A DNA stretch of 64,000 nt from Rhodovulum robiginosum (GTDB lineage: Bacteria > Pseudomonadota > Alphaproteobacteria > Rhodobacterales > Rhodobacteraceae): assembly GCF_003944755.1 (NCBI RefSeq), contig NZ_RWGU01000051.1:186001-250000 (forward strand). The letters run 5' to 3'. Below, in pieces: positions 8,552-60,020 of this stretch. The first letter of the stretch is position 1. The number at the start of each line of letters is the position of its first letter. The notes below the pieces were generated by a model. The model saw nothing but the letters and a program-made list of their open reading frames with translations. It was not told where the DNA came from and searched no databases. A program made the translations under genes and the position numbers.

Positions 8552-10132
8552 CTAGTAGCCCAGCGCGCAGCCGTCCTTGCGCGGGTCCGACGCGCCCTGC
8601 AGCACCCCGCTTTCCTCGTCGATGACGATCGCCTGGGCGCCGCCCAGCGCGCTTTCGGGCGTGGCCACGTCATGGCCCATGCCGGCAAGCTCTGCACGCA
8701 CCGCGTCGCTATAGCCGCGTTCGAGCATCAACTGGCCCTCCAGCGGAAAGCTGCGCGGCGCGTCCAGCGCGGCCTGCGGATCCATCCCGTAATCGACGAC
8801 ATTGGACAGAACCCGCGCATGCCCCGCCGGCTGATAGGGGCCGCCCATTACGCCGAACGGCATGATCACGCGGCCATTCCTTTTCATCATCGCCGGGATG
8901 ATCGTGTGCATCGGGCGTTTGCCGCCGTGGGCCTCGTTCGGGTGGCCCTCGGCCAGGGTAAAGCCCGCGCCGCGGTTCTGGAAATTGATCCCGAACTTCT
9001 CTGACGCCAGGCCCGAGCCGAAGCTGTGGAAGATCGAGTAGATCAGCGACACCACCATCCGGTCGCGGTCGATCACGGTGATGTAAATCGTTTCCTTGTG
9101 CACCGACTCCGACACCGCGGCGGCGTCGGCCATCGGCCGGTCCGGGTCGATCAGTGCGGCCAGTTTCTCGGCCGTCTCGGGCGCCAGCATGTGGTCGAGC
9201 CGCCGGGTCTGCCCGGCGTCGGCGATGAAGCGGTTGCGCGCGTCATAGGCCAGCTTGGCCGCCTCGGCCTCCAGATGGGCGCGGCGCGCGCCCCACGGGT
9301 CCAGCGCGGCGAGGTCGAATTGCGCCAGGATGTTGGCCATCAGGATCGCCGTGGCGCCCTGCCCGTTGGGCGGATGCTCGACCAGCTCGACATCGCGGTA
9401 GGGGCCGCTCAGCGGCGTGGTGTATTCGCAGGCGGTTGCCGCGAAATCGTCCAGCGTGTGCACCCCCCCGACGGCGTTGAGCGAGGCCACCATGTCCTCG
9501 GCCACCTCGCCCTCGTAAAAGGCCGCGCGTCCCTCCATCGCGATTCGGCGCAGCACTTCGGCCTGTTGCGGCGCGCGAAACACCTGGCCCGGCCGCGGCG
9601 GGGCGCCGTTCAGCAGGTAGTGCTCGCGCGCGGCGCCCTGCAACGCGTCGCTCGCGCGCGCCCAGTCAAAGGCGGTGCGCGGGGCCACGGGCACGCCCGC
9701 CGCGGCATAATGGATCGCGGGCGCGAGGCTTGCCTTCAGCCCGGCCCGGCCCCAGTCGCGCGACAGCCGGCAAAAGGCGTCGACCGCACCTGGAACGGTC
9801 ACGGCCTCGGGTCCCTGCGGCGGCACCGCGGCGAGGCCCCGGTCGCGCATCGCGGCGGCCGACAGGGCGGCGGGCGCCCGGCCCGACCCGTTCAGCGCAA
9901 CGATCTCGTCGCTGTCGGATGGGCGGATCAGCACGAAACAGTCGCCGCCCAGCCCGGTCATCTGCGGCTCGCAAATCCCCAGGAGAACGGCGCCGGCCAT
10001 TGCGGCATCGACAGCGTTGCCACCGGCCTCGAGCATCTGCACCGCGACCTTGGCGGCCAGCGGGTGCGACGTGGCGCACATCCCGTTCGTGGCGAAGACG
10101 GGCGAGCGGCCCGGAAGCTGGAAATCGCGCAT
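8552..10132 (-). CDS. ggt: Gamma-glutamyltransferase family protein
   Basis: An N-terminal nucleophile hydrolase that self-cleaves into two subunits and hydrolyses or transfers the gamma-glutamyl group of glutathione and analogues. Seen: GMCATSHPLAAK near the N-terminus, the conserved GNAVDAAMA block, the large subunit EHPPNGQG, and the autocleavage site E|TIYITV, where the Thr would become the new N-terminus; MGGPYQPAGH follows. The start at 10132 (MRDFQLP) has GGAGG eight bases upstream; ATGs at 10150 and 10192 would add non-conserved residues. No signal peptide is evident, so a cytoplasmic GGT-like hydrolase is possible. Length of 526 residues fits the family. Confidence 0.9.
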   Translation of the reverse strand: MRDFQLPGRSPVFATNGMCATSHPLAAKVAVQMLEAGGNAVDAAMAGAVLLGICEPQMTGLGGDCFVLIRPSDSDEIVALNGSGRAPAALSAAAMRDRGLAAVPPQGPEAVTVPGAVDAFCRLSRDWGRAGLKASLAPAIHYAAAGVPVAPRTAFDWARASDALQGAAREHYLLNGAPPRPGQVFRAPQQAEVLRRIAMEGRAAFYEGEVAEDMVASLNAVGGVHTLDDFAATACEYTTPLSGPYRDVELVEHPPNGQGATAILMANILAQFDLAALDPWGARRAHLEAEAAKLAYDARNRFIADAGQTRRLDHMLAPETAEKLAALIDPDRPMADAAAVSESVHKETIYITVIDRDRMVVSLIYSIFHSFGSGLASEKFGINFQNRGAGFTLAEGHPNEAHGGKRPMHTIIPAMMKRNGRVIMPFGVMGGPYQPAGHARVLSNVVDYGMDPQAALDAPRSFPLEGQLMLERGYSDAVRAELAGMGHDVATPESALGGAQAIVIDEESGVLQGASDPRKDGCALGY

Positions 10133-52594: not shown

Positions 52595-52671
52595 GGCGGA
52601 GTAGCTCAGTTGGTTAGAGCAGAGGAATCATAATCCTTGTGTCGGGGGTTCAAGTCCCTCCTCCGCTACCA
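52595..52671 (+). tRNA. tRNA-Met (CAT), elongator type
   Basis: Full cloverleaf of 77 bases with encoded CCA: acceptor GGCGGAG/CTCCGCT (one G-T pair), D-arm GCTCAGTTGGTTAGAGC, anticodon loop ATCATAA (CAT), T-arm GGGGGTTCAAGTCCCTC. It lacks the initiator mismatch at position 1-72 and the GGG/CCC anticodon stem, and matches the alphaproteobacterial elongator Met sequence I know; tRNA-Ile2 is unlikely. Confidence 0.95.
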
Positions 52672-52981: not shown

Positions 52982-54208
52982 ATGACCGATTACGACCCCG
53001 AAAAGGGCTATATCGCAATCCTGGGCTGGAGCCTGAACGCCATCGACGCGGTCGACCGGTTCGATCGCCGCTACATCGTGGTGGCCCCGCCCTGGGCCGA
53101 GGACTATTGCAAGCAAAACGACATCCCGTACATGGCGTGGGATTTCGACCGGCTGAACGAACGCTCCTACGAGCTGGCGACCAAGCTGAAGGACGAGGGC
53201 GTCGACGTGGCCATCCCGCTCTTCGAGGAGACCGTGGAATGGGCGGGCGCCGTCAACTCGGTGTTGCTGAAAAACCCGCGTCTGCTGGGCCAGTCGATGC
53301 TGTTCCGCGACAAGTCGCTGATGAAACGCCGCGCGCAACTCGGCGGCATCCGCGTCGGTGTTTTCGAAGAGGCGCATGACCGGGGCGACGTGATCCGGTT
53401 TCTCGTCCGCGTGAACCAGACCCTGCTGAAGCTGGACGGCGACCCCAACGACCCGATCCACTTCAAGGCATTCGACAAATCGGGCACCGCCGGGCACCGC
53501 GTGATCCGCACGCCCGAGGACGTGGACAACATCCCCGACGAGGAGTTTCCCGCGCTCTTGGAAAGCCACCTGGACGGCTGGGAATTCGCCGTCGAGGCCT
53601 GGATCAAGGACCGCAAGATCGAGTTCCTGAATATCTCGGAATATGTGACGCTGGGCTATTCGGTCTTCGTGCCCGCCACACCCGAGCTGGAAAAGCACCG
53701 CGCCCGCATCACCGAGGAAATCGAGAAGCTGATCGAGGCCTTCGACATCGATTTCGGCTTCATCCACCCGGAATATTTCCTGACCAACGACAACAAGCTC
53801 TATTTCGGCGAGGTCGCCTATCGTCCGCCGGGGTTCAACGCGCTGGAACTGATCGAGCGCGCCTACGGGTTCAACGGCTATCAGGGGATGGTGCTGATGT
53901 TCGACCCCAAGGCCACCCGTGAAGAGATCGACGCCTTCTTTCCCGAAGAGGTCAAGGACGCCAAGGGCCATGCGGGGTGTTTCGGGGTCTATCCGCGCCG
54001 GCGTGTGGTCAGCCGTCTGGAGATCCCCGAGGCGACCCGCGACCACCCCTATTTCGAGTATCACCAGCTTTCCGAACCGATGGAGCAGAAGGTCACCAAG
54101 CGCACCGCGTTCGGCACCCATTGGGGGCTGGCCTATTTCTTCGGCGAGGATCCGCACCGCCTGCGCGATCTGTTGAAGGCGCAGGAAGAGTTGGACTTTT
54201 ACGTTTGA
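52982..54208 (+). CDS. ATP-grasp ligase-like protein
   Basis: A 408-residue cytoplasmic protein with an N-terminal pre-ATP-grasp part (~1-100, IAILGWSLNAIDAVDRF) and an ATP-grasp core: a lysine-bearing FKAFDKSGTAGHRVI segment near residue 165, DGWEFAVEAWIKD near 200 and the metal-binding end KLYFGEVAYRPPGFNALE near 285. ATP-grasp enzymes join a carboxylate to an amine or thiol through an acyl-phosphate. The C-terminal ~90 residues carry a small beta-rich part (GCFGVYPRRRVVSRLEIP). Substrate unknown. It sits 45 bases before a large gene with papain-like residues, on the same strand. Confidence 0.85.
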   Translation: MTDYDPEKGYIAILGWSLNAIDAVDRFDRRYIVVAPPWAEDYCKQNDIPYMAWDFDRLNERSYELATKLKDEGVDVAIPLFEETVEWAGAVNSVLLKNPRLLGQSMLFRDKSLMKRRAQLGGIRVGVFEEAHDRGDVIRFLVRVNQTLLKLDGDPNDPIHFKAFDKSGTAGHRVIRTPEDVDNIPDEEFPALLESHLDGWEFAVEAWIKDRKIEFLNISEYVTLGYSVFVPATPELEKHRARITEEIEKLIEAFDIDFGFIHPEYFLTNDNKLYFGEVAYRPPGFNALELIERAYGFNGYQGMVLMFDPKATREEIDAFFPEEVKDAKGHAGCFGVYPRRRVVSRLEIPEATRDHPYFEYHQLSEPMEQKVTKRTAFGTHWGLAYFFGEDPHRLRDLLKAQEELDFYV

Positions 54209-54253
54209 CGGCGGGTATCGCTGAAAACAGAGCAGAAGAAGGGTCAGGTACTC

Positions 54254-56272
54254 ATGGCTGAAGACGCCCCGGATGCGGCGCGGCTGGCCGGGACGCTGGA
54301 CGTGGCGCTCCAGCGCCTCGAGCAGGCGCGACGGTTCAACAAGCACCGGTATCAAATGCCGGTACTCGACGTCGTGTCGCGGCTGATCCAGGTTCCCGGC
54401 GGGCTGGAGGTGCTGCGCGAGCGCGCCCCGGCGCTGGACGCCGCAGGGCTGTTCTGGGGGTCGGACTGGGAGGCGCCCGCGACGCTGCTGCCGCAGCTCG
54501 TCGGCCAGACCCTGTCCTCGGACGACCGCACGCTGGTGGCGCTGGAGGTGGCGAACCTGCTGCGGTTTCTGGCCATTGCCCAGGGCCGTGCGACCAACCC
54601 CAACCTGCACGCCGAACACGCGCGGCATTTCCTGACCCAGGTGCTGGCGCTGAACCTGCGGCATTTCTTTGCCGGTAACTCCGAGGCCGACCGGCAGGAG
54701 GCAAACCCGGGGCTGCGCCAGAATGTCTTTCGCTTCGTTGCCGAGCATGTCGGTTTGGAGGACGTGCTTGGCGTGCTGGTCGACGAAATCTGGCGCATCC
54801 TCGAACAGCGTCCGGTCCAAAGTGCGCCGGTCAAGGAAATGATTACCCAGATGGCCATCGCGATGACGCGGCAGGGGCTTGACGCCGGCGCCGAGCGGCT
54901 GGGCGTCGAGCGCCTTGTCAGCGCGCTGTTCGGCCCTACCACCGAATGCCGCGACGACCCCGGCGTGGCCGTCTATCTCGGCCGGCTCGGCCATCTCGAC
55001 GAGGCCGGGCTGCACCGCGAGGCGCAGGGGTTTGCGCGGGCGATGCATGACACGGGCCTGGTTTCGGATTACCACGCGGCGTTCCTGCGCTGGGTCGCGC
55101 CGATTGCCGAGGTCGAGCTGGTGCCCGAGGCGCTGGGCCTGGGGCCGACGGGCAAGGATTGCTGGCGCCGCTGGCGCGGGCTGGCGGTGGACCTGATCGA
55201 TGCGGCGGTCTCGGAATGGACGCCGCAGGCGGCCTATGGCCTGGCCATGCTGCTGGAGCGCGGCATCCTGCACCTGCCGCCCCTGGCCCCGGCCCTTCGG
55301 CGGCAGATGTCGATGCAATTGACGCCAGGAACGGCGCAGAGGCTGGCGCTGGCCTTTGGCGACGCCGTGGCCCCGGAAACCCGGCTTCTGGCCGGGGTGC
55401 TCGAGGTATTGGGCCAGCCGCTTGGCGTCGGACAGGGCGCCAACCCGACCTGCCAGTCGGCCCGAGCTATCTCGATGTGGGCTCTCAACGACCCCGACTA
55501 CCTGCTGAACCTGATCGCCCAGGCGGGCGAGTTCGACTCGGTGCTGATGCATTTCGAGGGTCAGCCGATCAACTCGGCCGACCTGCCGGCCGGGCTGGCG
55601 CTTTCGGCGCCGATCGACGCCGACCCGGTCTCGGTGGTTCTGGTGCCCCACCTGGACCGGATCTATGCAGAGATGGGCCGGCTCTGCGCGCCGCGCGGCG
55701 GCGAACCGCATCGCTGGGTCAACCCCGAATTCCACGGCTGGTGGGTGTCACGGGCCTGTCTTGTGGCCGTTGATGTCGGCACCGGGCGGCTGGCCGAGTT
55801 CGACACGTTCCTCACCCGGTTTTTCAAGAGCTACGATCCGCGTTTCAACGGCGGGCGCCCGCTTATCCATCCGCAGCCCGCGGGGATCGCGGTGACCGAC
55901 AGCGCCGCGCGGTTCGTTGGCTGGCACGCCATCGCCATCCTGCGCGTCGCCGAGGACCAGCACGGCGATATGCGGATCTATTTTTACAACCCCAACAACG
56001 ACAGCGGCCAGGATTGGGGCGGCGGTGTCGTGGTCTCGACCTCCGGGTTCGGAGAGCGGCACGGAGAGGCCTCGCTGCCGATCGAGCAGTTCTGCGCGCG
56101 GCTCTACCTGTTTCACGACGATCCCGTGCGTCCGCCCGGAATCGGCGCGCCGGTGCCCGAGGACATCCGCGCCCGCGTCCACCAAATGGCGGTCGAAAGC
56201 TGGGCGGCCGAGCGTCTGCCCGAAGATGGCGTGGTGCTTGCGGGCAGCACGGACCGCGCCGCGCCGGGGTAG
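54254..56272 (+). CDS. Unrecognised 672-residue protein with papain-like C-terminal domain
   Basis: Residues 1 to ~380 are mainly helical by appearance and match no family I know. The C-terminal part shows a papain-type set: Gln394 six residues before Cys400 (GQGANPTCQSARAISMW), His558 in GWHAIAIL and N582DSGQDWG, whose Asn/Gly/Trp/Gly spacing equals the papain NSWGTGWG block. In papain these are oxyanion Gln, nucleophile, base and orienting Asn. No signal peptide or membrane helix. It follows the ATP-grasp gene after 45 bases (AAGAAGGG site), so a ligase/hydrolase pair is plausible. Family assignment rests on motif reading only. It converges on the DUF2478 gene. Confidence 0.75.
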   Translation: MAEDAPDAARLAGTLDVALQRLEQARRFNKHRYQMPVLDVVSRLIQVPGGLEVLRERAPALDAAGLFWGSDWEAPATLLPQLVGQTLSSDDRTLVALEVANLLRFLAIAQGRATNPNLHAEHARHFLTQVLALNLRHFFAGNSEADRQEANPGLRQNVFRFVAEHVGLEDVLGVLVDEIWRILEQRPVQSAPVKEMITQMAIAMTRQGLDAGAERLGVERLVSALFGPTTECRDDPGVAVYLGRLGHLDEAGLHREAQGFARAMHDTGLVSDYHAAFLRWVAPIAEVELVPEALGLGPTGKDCWRRWRGLAVDLIDAAVSEWTPQAAYGLAMLLERGILHLPPLAPALRRQMSMQLTPGTAQRLALAFGDAVAPETRLLAGVLEVLGQPLGVGQGANPTCQSARAISMWALNDPDYLLNLIAQAGEFDSVLMHFEGQPINSADLPAGLALSAPIDADPVSVVLVPHLDRIYAEMGRLCAPRGGEPHRWVNPEFHGWWVSRACLVAVDVGTGRLAEFDTFLTRFFKSYDPRFNGGRPLIHPQPAGIAVTDSAARFVGWHAIAILRVAEDQHGDMRIYFYNPNNDSGQDWGGGVVVSTSGFGERHGEASLPIEQFCARLYLFHDDPVRPPGIGAPVPEDIRARVHQMAVESWAAERLPEDGVVLAGSTDRAAPG

Positions 56273-56301: not shown

Positions 56302-56826
56302 TCAGCCGACGGGCACCGGCCGGTCGTCGGCCAGGTGACGGACCCACCCCATCAGGACATCGCGCCGCGGCAGCAGGGCCGTGGCGAGGCCATCGGAAAA
56401 ATCGAGGAACGCCTCGAGGTTGAGATCGTTGACGCCGACGATCACCGGTATGTCCCGGCCGATCGCCTCGGCGATGGCGCCGCAAAGGCCGCGCCCTTGC
56501 GATTCCAGCTTGCCGAACTTGTTGACGATCAACAGATCGGCGCCCGCGGCAACGCTGCGGCCGACCGCGGCAGCGGCCATTTCAAGCGCCCCGGTATCCA
56601 GCCGGCACCCCCGCGACCCCGCGCCGAGGGATTGCGAGACCCGTATCTCGGGGCCGTCCGGCAACACCCTGAGGTCCATGTCGCACGGGTGGCTGTCGGG
56701 CGCTCGCGGGTCGATCTGGACCAGACCGGCGACCCGCGCGCCCTGCGCCGTCAGCTCTTTCGCGAGGTCGAAAAACAGCATCCCGGCATCGCCGCGGCCC
56801 GGCATCGTCGTATAGGCAAGGTGCAT
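56302..56826 (-). CDS. DUF2478 protein, putative molybdenum-related NTPase
   Basis: A 174-residue protein of the DUF2478 type. Near the N-terminus MPGRGDAGMLFFDLA takes the place of a nucleotide loop; the central LLIVNKFGKLESQGRGLCGAI is the family hallmark and resembles a nucleoside-triphosphatase strand. Members are known from genomic context with molybdate uptake and Mo-cofactor enzymes. It is the last gene of the aioBA unit (68 bases after aioA), so a role in supplying or inserting the Mo cofactor of AioA is inferred. The start at 56826 fits the conserved beginning. Confidence 0.82.
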   Translation of the reverse strand: MHLAYTTMPGRGDAGMLFFDLAKELTAQGARVAGLVQIDPRAPDSHPCDMDLRVLPDGPEIRVSQSLGAGSRGCRLDTGALEMAAAAVGRSVAAGADLLIVNKFGKLESQGRGLCGAIAEAIGRDIPVIVGVNDLNLEAFLDFSDGLATALLPRRDVLMGWVRHLADDRPVPVG

Positions 56827-56894
56827 TGCGTTGTGTTCCTTCGGCTTGACTGAAAAAGGCGGCGCCCGCCCGGTCACCGGGCGGGCGCCGTCGA

Positions 56895-59360
56895 TCAGAG
56901 TTCGACTTCCCAGGATTTGAAGCTGATCTTTTCCGCGGCCGGGCTTGGGTCCGCGATCTTGCGGATATTCGCCCAGGTCTGCTTGTAGTTCGGCAGGACC
57001 AGCTCATTCACGCCGGGGTTGATGACGTTGCCCTGCGCGCCCGAGGGCGCCCCGAACAGCATGAAGGTCTCGTTCGGCCGCGCGGTCGGTTCGAGATAGG
57101 CCATCGCCTGGGTGGCGCCGACATCGTTGTAGACCTCGACCATGTCGCCGCTCTTTACGCCCAGATCCGCCGCGTCCTCGGGATTGATCTGGATGAACGG
57201 CAGCGGGAAGCGGTCGATGGCGAAGTCGTTGTCCTGGTCGAGGAACCAGTTTTGCCAGTTGAGGTTCGACCGTCCGTTGTTGATCAGGAAGCGATGGTTT
57301 GCCTGCTGCTGCGCCTTGCCCGGCGCCTGCAGCCCGCGCCACGCCCCGAGGCAGAACAGCGCCTTGCCGTCTTCGCGGCCGTGCCGGTTGAAGACCCCGT
57401 CGGCGTAAAGACGGTTGGTTCCCACCAGCTTGCCGTCGGCGTAGCCGGTGACCGGCTCTTGCACGCCGTTGTTGCCCATCGCGCGCAGCCGGTCATAGGT
57501 CACCTCCGGGTTGCCGGTCTGGTAGCCGTCGACAAAGGCGTCCTCCTCGGTCTGCCAGTCGTAGCCGGTGAACCGGTCGGCATAGGCGTCGCGCCCCTCT
57601 TCGCGCAGCACGCGTTCGAGGTGTTGGGCGATCCCGGCCGCTATCAGGCAGTCGGGCTTCGACGATCCGGGCCCGTCCATGTATTTCTCGGTCAGCCTCA
57701 GCCGCCGTTCGCCGTTCATCGAGGTCAGGTTCATCTCGCCCGATTCCACCGCCGGCAGGATCACATGCGCGGCCTGACCGATCTGGCTGTGGATCACGTC
57801 GACATTGACCGAGAAGATGCCGCCGGCCTCGATCGCGCCGACGATGGCATCGACCAGTTCCTCGCGCGTCGTCCCGGCGCGGGCATCCATCGCCTCCTTC
57901 ACCATGTTGGAGCGGCGGTTGTAGACGCGCTTGAACTCGGAGGCGTTGAGCGTGGTCTTGTAGTGATCGTTGGCCCAGATGTGGTGCACCTTGCCCTGAC
58001 CCCCGATGATCAGCTGGTCGAGATAGGCGGCGGGCCGGCCGACATGGGCGTCGGAGGGGCGGAAATAACCCTCCTGGTGGCCGCCAAGGCGGCAGACCCC
58101 GCCGCCCTCGCGGCCGATATTGCCGGTGGCGAGCGCGATATTTACCAGCGCGCCGACGGTGGGATAGTTGTCGTTGCCCCAGATCACGCCCTTTTCATAG
58201 GCGATCGCGCATGTGCGGCGGGTGCCGTCGTCATGGGGTCGGGCGATCCATTCCGCCGCCTTGATGATATCGGCCTCGGAGACGCCGCAGATCGCGGCCG
58301 CATCGGCCGCGGACATCCGGCATTCCTCGCGCGCGGCCTCGAAAGAGCCCAGCGCGGTGGGGTGCGCCTCGTCGACCGCCTGGGCCACGCCGTCGGCAAA
58401 GGTCGAGGCCGCGATGAAGTCGGAATCGACCCAGCCCTGGTCGGCGATATGGGTGAAGAGGGCGTTGGCCACCGCCAGGTCGGTGCCCGGCGCGATCTGC
58501 AGGTGCAGCACGTTTTCGGCACCGGCCGCTTCTTCGCAGGCGTTCACGGTGACCGTCCGGCGCGGGTCGATGATCACCACGCGGGCGCCGTTGCGCATGC
58601 CCGGGATCATGTGGTTGAGAAACAGGTTGGTCTGGCATTCCAGGGGGTTGGTCCCCACCAGCACCATCGTGTCGGTGATCTCGTAATCCGAGTAGGCGTT
58701 GTTCAGCTCGCCCACCCCCATGTCGCGGGTGGAATGCACCTCGGAATTGTAGGCCGGGCGGTTGTGGATGCGGCAGTTCTTCACCTTCATGCTGTCGAAG
58801 TAGAGCTTGCCGGTGCCCCAGGTGTTTTCGTAGCCGCCGGCGCTGCCGCCGTGGTCGAACATCGACACGAAGAGATCGTCCTCGTTGTCCATGTCGATCA
58901 CGCGCGCGGTGACCCGCGCCACGAGGTCGAGCGCATCCGCCCAGGTGGTCGGCTGCCAGGTGCCGTAGCGCCAGACCATGGGTTCGGTCAGGCGCTGCTG
59001 CTGGGTGCCGGTGATGTCGGAGCGGCGGTTCTCGGCCATCCGGGCCCCGCGGACGGAGCCCAGCCCCGAGTTCACCGCGCAGTTCACGTCGGGCTTGATG
59101 ACGAGATGCACGTCGCGGCCATCCTGCTTGACGACATTGTACATCGACGGCGCATACCACGCCTCGGTCTCGGTGGGCTGCTGGCGCGTGAGATCGACGC
59201 CGAACTTGTTGTCGGAGGGGGCGCCGCCGCCCTGCCGGTTCAGCGGCCAGGTGTAGGCCTTGTAGCCGCAACCGACGATGCAATAGTGGCAGGTGACGTT
59301 ACGTTCCTGCGCATCCGCGGGGATGATCGGCAGGCGGTCGGTAAATCTTTTGTAGGCCAT
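56895..59360 (-). CDS. aioA: Arsenite oxidase large (molybdopterin) subunit AioA
   Basis: An 821-residue DMSO-reductase-family enzyme that oxidises arsenite to arsenate in the periplasm. The 3Fe-4S site is C24-X2-C27-X3-C31 (CHYCIVGCGYKAY), then VNCAVNSGLGSVRG, GTNPLECQTN, a YSDYEITDTM segment and PFIQINPEDAADLG near the end. Length equals the family (about 820-845). It has no signal of its own; known AioA rides out with the Tat-signalled AioB. AAGGGGGAG precedes the ATG, 12 bases after aioB. Part of a minus-strand aioXSR-aioBA-DUF2478 island. Confidence 0.97.
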   Translation of the reverse strand: MAYKRFTDRLPIIPADAQERNVTCHYCIVGCGYKAYTWPLNRQGGGAPSDNKFGVDLTRQQPTETEAWYAPSMYNVVKQDGRDVHLVIKPDVNCAVNSGLGSVRGARMAENRRSDITGTQQQRLTEPMVWRYGTWQPTTWADALDLVARVTARVIDMDNEDDLFVSMFDHGGSAGGYENTWGTGKLYFDSMKVKNCRIHNRPAYNSEVHSTRDMGVGELNNAYSDYEITDTMVLVGTNPLECQTNLFLNHMIPGMRNGARVVIIDPRRTVTVNACEEAAGAENVLHLQIAPGTDLAVANALFTHIADQGWVDSDFIAASTFADGVAQAVDEAHPTALGSFEAAREECRMSAADAAAICGVSEADIIKAAEWIARPHDDGTRRTCAIAYEKGVIWGNDNYPTVGALVNIALATGNIGREGGGVCRLGGHQEGYFRPSDAHVGRPAAYLDQLIIGGQGKVHHIWANDHYKTTLNASEFKRVYNRRSNMVKEAMDARAGTTREELVDAIVGAIEAGGIFSVNVDVIHSQIGQAAHVILPAVESGEMNLTSMNGERRLRLTEKYMDGPGSSKPDCLIAAGIAQHLERVLREEGRDAYADRFTGYDWQTEEDAFVDGYQTGNPEVTYDRLRAMGNNGVQEPVTGYADGKLVGTNRLYADGVFNRHGREDGKALFCLGAWRGLQAPGKAQQQANHRFLINNGRSNLNWQNWFLDQDNDFAIDRFPLPFIQINPEDAADLGVKSGDMVEVYNDVGATQAMAYLEPTARPNETFMLFGAPSGAQGNVINPGVNELVLPNYKQTWANIRKIADPSPAAEKISFKSWEVEL

Positions 59361-59372
59361 GATGCTCCCCCT

Positions 59373-59897
59373 TCAGGTATCCAGGACGTTGGACAGGCGG
59401 CCGTAGATCAGCTCGTCCACGCCCTCGGCAAAGATGTCGCCCGCGTCGTCCACGCGCAGCAGGAATTGCGGCAGGTTCTGGGTGGCGTGGCCCCAGACCT
59501 CTTGCCCGCCGGATTCGCAGTCGAACCGCGAGTAGTGGCCGGGGCAGTTCAGCGTCCGGTCGGCGGCGTGATAGCTTAGCTGCCAGCCCTTGTGCGGACA
59601 CAGCACCGAGAAGGCGACGATGTCGCCATCCGGCCCCGCGCCGCCCTCGACCGCGGTGCCGAGCTTGAGCAGAACGCCGGGGCTGTCGGCGTCGGGATAG
59701 GCGATGTCGAGCGGCGTATCGACGGCGAGATCGGCGATATTGGCCAGCCGGTTCGACGGGTATTCGACCCGCGCGAGGCTGAGTGCCGCGGCCTGCCGGG
59801 CGGGCAGAACGGTATTTGCCGCCGCGCCTGCGGCGCCCACGATGCCGCCGCGCAGGAACTGTCGGCGACCGGCATCGACCAGACGATTGCATTTCAT
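59373..59897 (-). CDS. aioB: Arsenite oxidase small (Rieske) subunit AioB
   Basis: A 174-residue subunit with a twin-arginine signal (RRQFLRGG plus a hydrophobic Ala-rich stretch) that carries AioA across the membrane. The Rieske 2Fe-2S ligands are C100/H102 (LCPHKGW) and C118/H121 (NCPGHYS). The two positions that form the disulfide in classical Rieske proteins are Trp105 and Gly120, so the bridge is absent. It passes electrons from AioA to a cytochrome or azurin; none is encoded here. GGGAGGA precedes the ATG at 59897; a longer frame (GTG at 59915) covers this site. Confidence 0.95.
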   Translation of the reverse strand: MKCNRLVDAGRRQFLRGGIVGAAGAAANTVLPARQAAALSLARVEYPSNRLANIADLAVDTPLDIAYPDADSPGVLLKLGTAVEGGAGPDGDIVAFSVLCPHKGWQLSYHAADRTLNCPGHYSRFDCESGGQEVWGHATQNLPQFLLRVDDAGDIFAEGVDELIYGRLSNVLDT

Positions 59898-60020
59898 GGA
59901 ACTGTCCTCCCTCACAGTTTCGATCCCGTCATGATACGGAAGGAGGGGCGCTGGCCGCGACAGCCCGTCACCGGTTGCCGCGCCGCGGCAAGGTATTGAA
60001 AAATCAGAGATGTCGAGGTC

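Follow-up and report, generated by a model that had tools for sequence, protein, structure and literature searches.

Two adjacent genes in a 64,000-nucleotide stretch of the Rhodovulum robiginosum genome (contig NZ_RWGU01000051.1, positions 186,001 to 250,000 of the forward strand; the whole stretch is called the window) encode an ATP-grasp ligase and a 672-residue protein with a probable papain-like cysteine hydrolase domain at its C-terminus. Homologs of the two genes form a conserved two-gene system that is spread across bacterial phyla, and its carriers nearly always have the gene for ectoine synthase. We tentatively favor the view that the ligase and the cysteine hydrolase work as one unit, which makes and turns over an amide-linked compound in salt-adapted, ectoine-synthesizing bacteria. 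The first-pass annotation of the window had placed a pair of open reading frames (ORFs) at 52982-56272; both were found at these coordinates on one strand, with a gap of 45 bp. The features of the pair are as follows.

52982..54208, + strand: ATP-grasp ligase, 408 aa (ORF and translation, fold match, conserved residues)
54209..54253, + strand: spacer of 45 bp between the genes for the ligase and the 672-aa protein (sequence)
54254..56272, + strand: 672-aa protein with a probable C-terminal papain-like cysteine hydrolase domain (ORF, AlphaFold model, conservation)
54254..55378, + strand: helical front half, residues 1-375, helical to about residue 390 (AlphaFold, fold search)
55379..56218, + strand: predicted papain-like domain, residues 376-655 (AlphaFold, fold searches)
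55433..55435, + strand: codon of Gln394, candidate for the oxyanion hole (identical in 99/99 homologs)
55451..55453, + strand: codon of Cys400, candidate nucleophile at the start of helix 400-412 (identical in 99/99)
55925..55927, + strand: codon of His558, on strand 554-567 (identical in 99/99)
55988..55990, + strand: codon of Asn579, best candidate for the third residue, directly past strand 573-578 (99/99)
55997..55999, + strand: codon of Asn582, the third residue proposed by the first-pass annotation (N in 98/99)

The evidence for a two-gene system comes from the distribution of the genes. A scan of the genome collection with two patterns gave at least 495 matched stretches encoding relatives (the loci may be fewer), from which the best 80 loci were kept; with the window and four others they make up a set of 85 loci. 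In the best 80 loci, relatives of the 672-aa protein occur in Alpha- and Gammaproteobacteria, in Actinomycetota and in metagenome-assembled genomes (MAGs) of Desulfobacterota. The ligase gene adjoins the cysteine gene on the same strand in 81 of the 85 loci; one of these ligases is split over two frames (locus L075) and two are cut by a contig end (L080 and L128). The intergenic gap, measured from the longest-ORF starts in 78 loci, has a median of 31.5 bp; it is at most 100 bp in 75 loci and 505 bp at the largest, and 14 of the pairs overlap. Four loci (L068, L089, L107 and L126) are without an adjacent ligase, but a full ligase gene is present elsewhere in each of these genomes. A ligase remnant is still found beside the cysteine gene in L089 and L107, while L068 and L126 have none. 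A full ligase was present in all ten carrier genomes tested. Among 398 Pseudomonadota genomes, a full-length relative of the 672-aa protein occurs in 11, and full-length ligase matches were found in the same 11; seven further genomes gave weak partial ligase matches only (best E 6.1e-7). The neighborhood survey thus bears out the pairing which the first-pass annotation had assumed. The sequence distances of the ligases and the cysteine proteins are also correlated (r = 0.90 over 86 pairs, with 0 of 999 permutations as high), albeit shared ancestry alone accounts for much of this value.

A tree of 97 ligases contains a second clade of 11 rows with a support of 100/100. The ligases of the four genomes without an adjacent ligase are among these second-type ligases; in one case, L060, a ligase of the second type lies beside the cysteine gene. 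On a simple reading, loss of the first-type ligase was confined to genomes in which one of the second type could stand in for it. Except for L076, which has a long branch, the actinobacterial ligases fall within the gammaproteobacterial ones, and this suggests a transfer between phyla. Three genomes of one genus, probably Marinobacter as judged from its place in the ligase tree, have at least three cysteine copies each and two or three ligases. Some of these copies lie in divergent orientation to a second-type ligase and some stand alone; three solo copies in an alignment retain the catalytic residues. Second-type ligases also occur without a cysteine gene alongside (L129, near a TelA toxic-anion resistance gene, and L131), and in L137 the contig stops just past the ligase. 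A search of plasmid records gave one match to the 672-aa protein, on a Halomonas megaplasmid, and a search of 50,697 phage records gave none. A phage or defense origin was rejected on this ground together with the PHROGs and PADLOC families, none of which matched the 672-aa protein or the ligase up to E 0.1.

The assignment of the first protein to the ATP-grasp enzymes, made in the first-pass annotation, is weak by Pfam and strong by fold. The ligase matches PF13535 (ATP-grasp_4) with E 0.0028 and 17.7 bits, under the gathering cut-off of 27. Its AlphaFold model (mean predicted local distance difference test score, pLDDT, 76.5) was compared with known structures by Foldseek; the best match is the L-amino acid ligase RizA (4wd3, E 1.4e-21, template modeling score (TM) 0.62), followed by the L-amino acid ligase BL00235 (3vot, E 5.7e-18, TM 0.68). 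PurK-type and related enzymes rank after these two, and the ATP-grasp fold spans the whole ligase chain. Sequence searches of the PDB also reach L-amino acid ligases, with weak matches (best E 0.14 with the single sequence and 0.0022 with a profile). Six residues (K111, K150, K162, E264, E277 and R281) are identical in all 97 ligases, and in a profile alignment E264, E277 and R281 line up with BL00235 and RizA. We take these conserved lysine, glutamate and arginine residues to be those of the nucleotide and Mg2+ sites. The ligase shares with RizA, BL00235 and BacD/YwfE the fold over nearly its full length as well as the Mg2+-site glutamates and arginine, but it is only 12-19% identical over the 50 Foldseek matches shown. 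We know of no dedicated cysteine hydrolase partner of the L-amino acid ligases.

The 672-aa protein was examined in an alignment of 99 homologs, which comprises the 85 loci and 14 more from the Pseudomonadota sample; a small number of its rows may be nearly identical entries from a single species. Q394, C400, H558 and N579 are identical in all 99 homologs, across phyla, so that the set of Gln, Cys, His and Asn is present and conserved in the order found in papain. Gln394, Cys400 and His558, which the first-pass annotation had singled out, are thus fully conserved, and the spacing it had pointed out is also real: the Gln lies six residues ahead of the Cys, as in papain and staphopain of peptidase family C1. 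Around N579 the residues P580, N581, D583, S584 and G589 are likewise identical in 99/99, and G585 and W588 in 98/99. The same annotation had named Asn582 as the third catalytic residue. N582 is Asn in 98 homologs and Tyr in one (L076, Hoyosella), and the papain-like N/G/W/G spacing that starts from it does exist; furthermore, its block pairs with NSWG in a non-significant hhalign alignment to a bacterial C1 domain. However, N579 is better placed. Because it follows strand 573-578 in the model, as the catalytic Asn of papain comes after its strand, we consider N579 more likely than N582 to be the third residue.

The AlphaFold model of the 672-aa protein (mean pLDDT 84.4, built from 32 sequences) agrees with this picture. 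In it C400 opens helix 400-412, H558 is in strand 554-567 and N579 stands after strand 573-578; the model has low confidence at residues 394-398. This arrangement, with Cys at the start of a helix and His and Asn on later strands, resembles the C1 peptidases. Residues from 1 to about 390 are helical in the model, which matches the large helical front half described earlier, and in the alignments many polar residues of this half are invariant. The claim that a signal peptide is absent also holds, as judged by eye, since none is apparent at the N-terminus. The C1 peptidases differ in that a helical front domain here takes the place of their propeptide, and in the apparent lack of a signal peptide.

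Fold searches gave a less definite answer. Foldseek with the full 672-aa model found nothing in the PDB below E 0.001. Staphopain chains rank third (E 0.35, probability 0.51) and ninth (E 0.47), and helical-repeat proteins, importins and catenins among them, make up most of the other 48 matches shown, which reflects a weak likeness of the front half to repeats of the armadillo/HEAT type. Among viral models (BFVD) the top match is a papain-like cysteine peptidase, albeit at a non-significant E of 0.10, and further papain-family proteins rank 12 and 20. Proteases of the papain type belong to the best fold matches but none is significant, so a papain fold of the C-terminal domain is probable in the model, not proven. 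The order of helices and strands fits the papain-like fold proposed in the first-pass annotation, whereas the matches stay below significance and the hhalign comparison with one bacterial C1 domain was not significant (probability 0.4%); an unrelated control likewise gave no significant match. By sequence, the 672-aa protein has no family match in Pfam, including peptidase family C1 (PF00112), or in NCBIfam up to E 1, and PDB sequence searches with it returned no peptidase (best E 0.16 and 0.71). The first-pass annotation had seen its idea at risk from catalytic residues that vary among homologs, a fold unlike papain and genes that rarely occur together; none of the three was found outright.

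Because many carriers are halophiles by name, we examined the occurrence of ectoine synthase (ectC, scored as PF06339 over cut-off), the sole salt marker compared. In the Pseudomonadota sample ectC is present in 11 of 11 carriers and in 48 of 387 non-carriers (Fisher 3.2e-10); counted by genus at E 0.001, the numbers are 7/7 and 28/206 (Fisher 1.9e-6). The window's relatives gave 5/5 carriers and 28/96 others (3.0e-3), two of the five carriers being shared with the Pseudomonadota sample. In an actinobacterial order, that of Saccharopolyspora endophytica, ectC was found in all six carriers and in 57 of 204 other genomes (6.1e-4). All these Fisher values are inflated by the relatedness of the genomes. 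Further carriers were drawn from the 80 kept loci so that they are spread over genera, with all but one of the Halomonadaceae left out. Of these 46 genomes, 45 have ectC, and they span Alpha- and Gammaproteobacteria, Desulfobacterota and Actinomycetota; the exception is a MAG of the Desulfobulbaceae (G517). Overall, with each genome counted once, ectC is present in 64 of 65 carriers.

The pair shows little physical linkage to ect genes. The ectC gene of the window's own genome lies on a different contig. An ectC-like sequence (E 1e-4) was found in four of 104 loci (some overlapping) searched along with the window, namely L083, L121, L066 and L142; the match in L142 is at the same place as that in L066. 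L083 has a complete ectC 1.85 kb from the ligase on the opposite strand, and the sequence in L121, 42% identical, is at the far end of the locus. In L066, from a MAG of the Desulfobacteraceae, a remnant of the C-terminal part of ectC (8573-8644) lies upstream of the ligase in the same orientation and stops about 80 bp short of it; this genome also has a complete ectC elsewhere, which is very like the remnant. EctB-like matches in other loci, with 24-31% identity, are probably other aminotransferases.

How such a pair could work is suggested by the known chemistry of the two enzyme classes. ATP-grasp ligases convert a carboxylate to an acyl phosphate, which then forms an amide with an amine; in papain a Cys nucleophile acts with His and Asn, while a Gln steadies the oxyanion. 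The ligase of the pair would be a cytoplasmic amide ligase of the L-amino acid ligase type, which would activate a carboxylate as acyl phosphate and then couple an amine. By analogy with papain, Cys400 would attack an amide with the help of His558 and Asn579, and Gln394 would steady the oxyanion. The cysteine amidohydrolase may thus cut the same kind of amide bond that the ligase forms. The product would be peptide-like or a conjugate of an amino acid and an amine, presumably a small molecule rather than a protein, and not tied to glutathione.

Making and cutting one product is the coupling that is easiest to read from such a pair, by analogy with glutathionylspermidine synthetase/amidase (Gss), the ligase of which is an ATP-grasp enzyme. 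Gss and trypanothione synthetase/amidase resemble the pair in that a ligase and a papain-fold cysteine amidase are combined in one functional unit. The Gss amidase is described as a CHAP domain (PMC10318531), and synthesis and hydrolysis are placed within one protein (PMC2784880). Gss is a single fusion, whereas here there are two genes; the ligase resembles L-amino acid ligases, and the first 390 or so residues of the hydrolase form a helical front half. Neither a GSP_synth nor a CHAP domain was found in the pair by Pfam up to E 1. Furthermore, the glutathione synthetase ATP domain (PF02955) was detected in seven of ten carriers tested, with weaker matches only in two carriers from Desulfobacterota (best E 7.2e-18 and 2.0e-15). 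It was not found in the remaining three, all actinobacteria which do have the pair, and this argues against glutathione as the substrate; as an obligatory substrate it was rejected.

Several observations weigh against a make-and-cut unit linked to ectoine. The fold and profile searches with the 672-aa protein are negative at the usual thresholds, and both the distance correlation and the Fisher values owe part of their strength to common descent. ORF clustering around the 85 loci showed no third conserved gene beside the pair, so nothing in the loci examined names the product. When a ligase and a hydrolase share an operon, their steps could be consecutive rather than opposed, and the helical front half could point to a protein substrate. 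Finally, ectoine synthesis may merely mark salty habitats.

The last point leads to an alternative reading of the ectoine link. The association with ectoine would then be ecological only, the pair having some general function that is useful in the saline habitats of ectoine makers. We hold this to be somewhat probable; it contests the ectoine link and leaves the ligase/hydrolase reading untouched, and this judgment does not exclude the other alternatives. In the window's genus ectC is present in 15 of 16 genomes and the cysteine gene in two of 16, which means that ectoine does not require the pair, and only three of the 85 loci contain an ectC-like sequence. On the other hand, the association was seen in two phyla sampled separately as well as in the further carriers from four groups, and the ectC remnant of L066 lies directly upstream of the ligase on the same strand. 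A direct tie to ectoine would take the form of a two-enzyme system of osmoadaptation: the ligase would join an amino acid to a compound of the ectoine pathway (diaminobutyrate, acetyl-diaminobutyrate or an ectoine hydrolysis product), and the resulting amide, a new solute or signal, would be cleaved by the cysteine enzyme as salinity falls. We regard this more specific version as doubtful.

It is rather unlikely, though worth weighing, that the two enzymes are steps of one biosynthesis in which nothing is reversed. The ligase would make an amide, and the cysteine enzyme, as an acyltransferase, cyclase or trimming enzyme, would convert it to a novel solute or a secondary metabolite. Enzymes acting in sequence would account just as well for the tight operon and the distance correlation. 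For papain-like enzymes of peptide biosynthetic clusters, PMC2922099 predicts a role as transacylases. The predicted peptide-synthesis operons of that paper are, with the amidoligase systems of Iyer et al. (2009), among the closest known systems; ATP-grasp ligases and papain-like enzymes occur in such operons (PMC2922099). However, those operons carry further modifying enzymes and transporters (PMC2922099), whereas here we find a bare pair. Beside it, the loci examined share no further gene for biosynthesis or export, which is unusual for a dedicated pathway although possible for one of two steps.

We also judge it unlikely that the pair modifies proteins reversibly. In this scheme the ligase would attach one amino acid or a short peptide to a target protein, and the cysteine protein, which would dock the target via its front half, would take this tag off again. 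A helical shape with weak armadillo/HEAT-type matches is often protein-binding, and the invariant polar residues of the front half would suit such a role. But the ligase fold is closest to the ligases of free amino acids, no enzyme of the RimK or tubulin-ligase type is among the 50 Foldseek matches shown, and no conserved target gene is nearby in the loci examined. That the 672-aa protein is non-catalytic or not papain-like, with a coincidental residue pattern, would accord with the lack of a significant peptidase match by sequence or fold, but is very improbable given four residues that are invariant across phyla and well placed in the modeled secondary structure.

The surroundings of the pair vary between loci. 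After the pair itself, the next ORF cluster covers 25 loci and varies in orientation, the same strand being used by 20 of its 29 copies; those of the tighter clusters that were inspected reflect Halomonas synteny. Pfam searches with 91 of the 151 flanking proteins gave no recurrent partner, the commonest families being matched by two of the 91. A ribosomal peptide as substrate was rejected, as the 60 most widely conserved rows of small ORFs (at least 18 aa, within 1.5 kb of the pair) are all in Halomonadaceae loci. The conserved upstream block in Halomonadaceae was dismissed as well; it is an ordinary signal recognition particle (SRP) RNA gene on the other strand, which Rfam located next to the pair in L082, L098 and L102, three of the six loci scanned. 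In the window a tRNA-Met gene (52595-52671) precedes the ligase by about 310 bp. The idea of a fixed site of insertion at a tRNA was rejected: among the loci of 60 relatives, a tRNA (Val) in the 1 kb ahead of the ligase was seen in L008 alone. Downstream of the pair the window contains a DUF2478 protein (56302-56877) and then, on the - strand at 56895-59915, the large and small subunits of arsenite oxidase (TIGR02693, 1119 bits; TIGR02694, 193 bits). In L132 (4941-10870) a solo cysteine gene follows an ATP-binding cassette (ABC) transporter set with SBP_bac_8 and two permeases. The transporter would be of the spermidine/putrescine type, a hint of a polyamine link that was set aside as confined to this one locus.

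In the titles and abstract beginnings of the open-access literature we recognized no description of the pair or of an ATP-grasp enzyme with a link to ectoine. Relatives of the 672-aa protein are numerous and occur in at least four bacterial groups, yet no family model matched the protein. PMC10318531 names 21 newly classified papain-like families, and the family of the 672-aa protein may be one of them. What is new here is the nearly constant presence of ectoine synthase in the carriers; like the spread of the pair across phyla, it could not be seen in the first-pass annotation. Together, these results suggest that salt-adapted cells have an enzyme pair which is so far undescribed. If an amide compound is indeed made and removed only in ectoine-synthesizing cells, the pair would be a new component of a well-studied and industrially used stress response. 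Even if the link to ectoine is only ecological, it represents a new family of likely cysteine hydrolases, which never occur without the ligase in the genomes checked.

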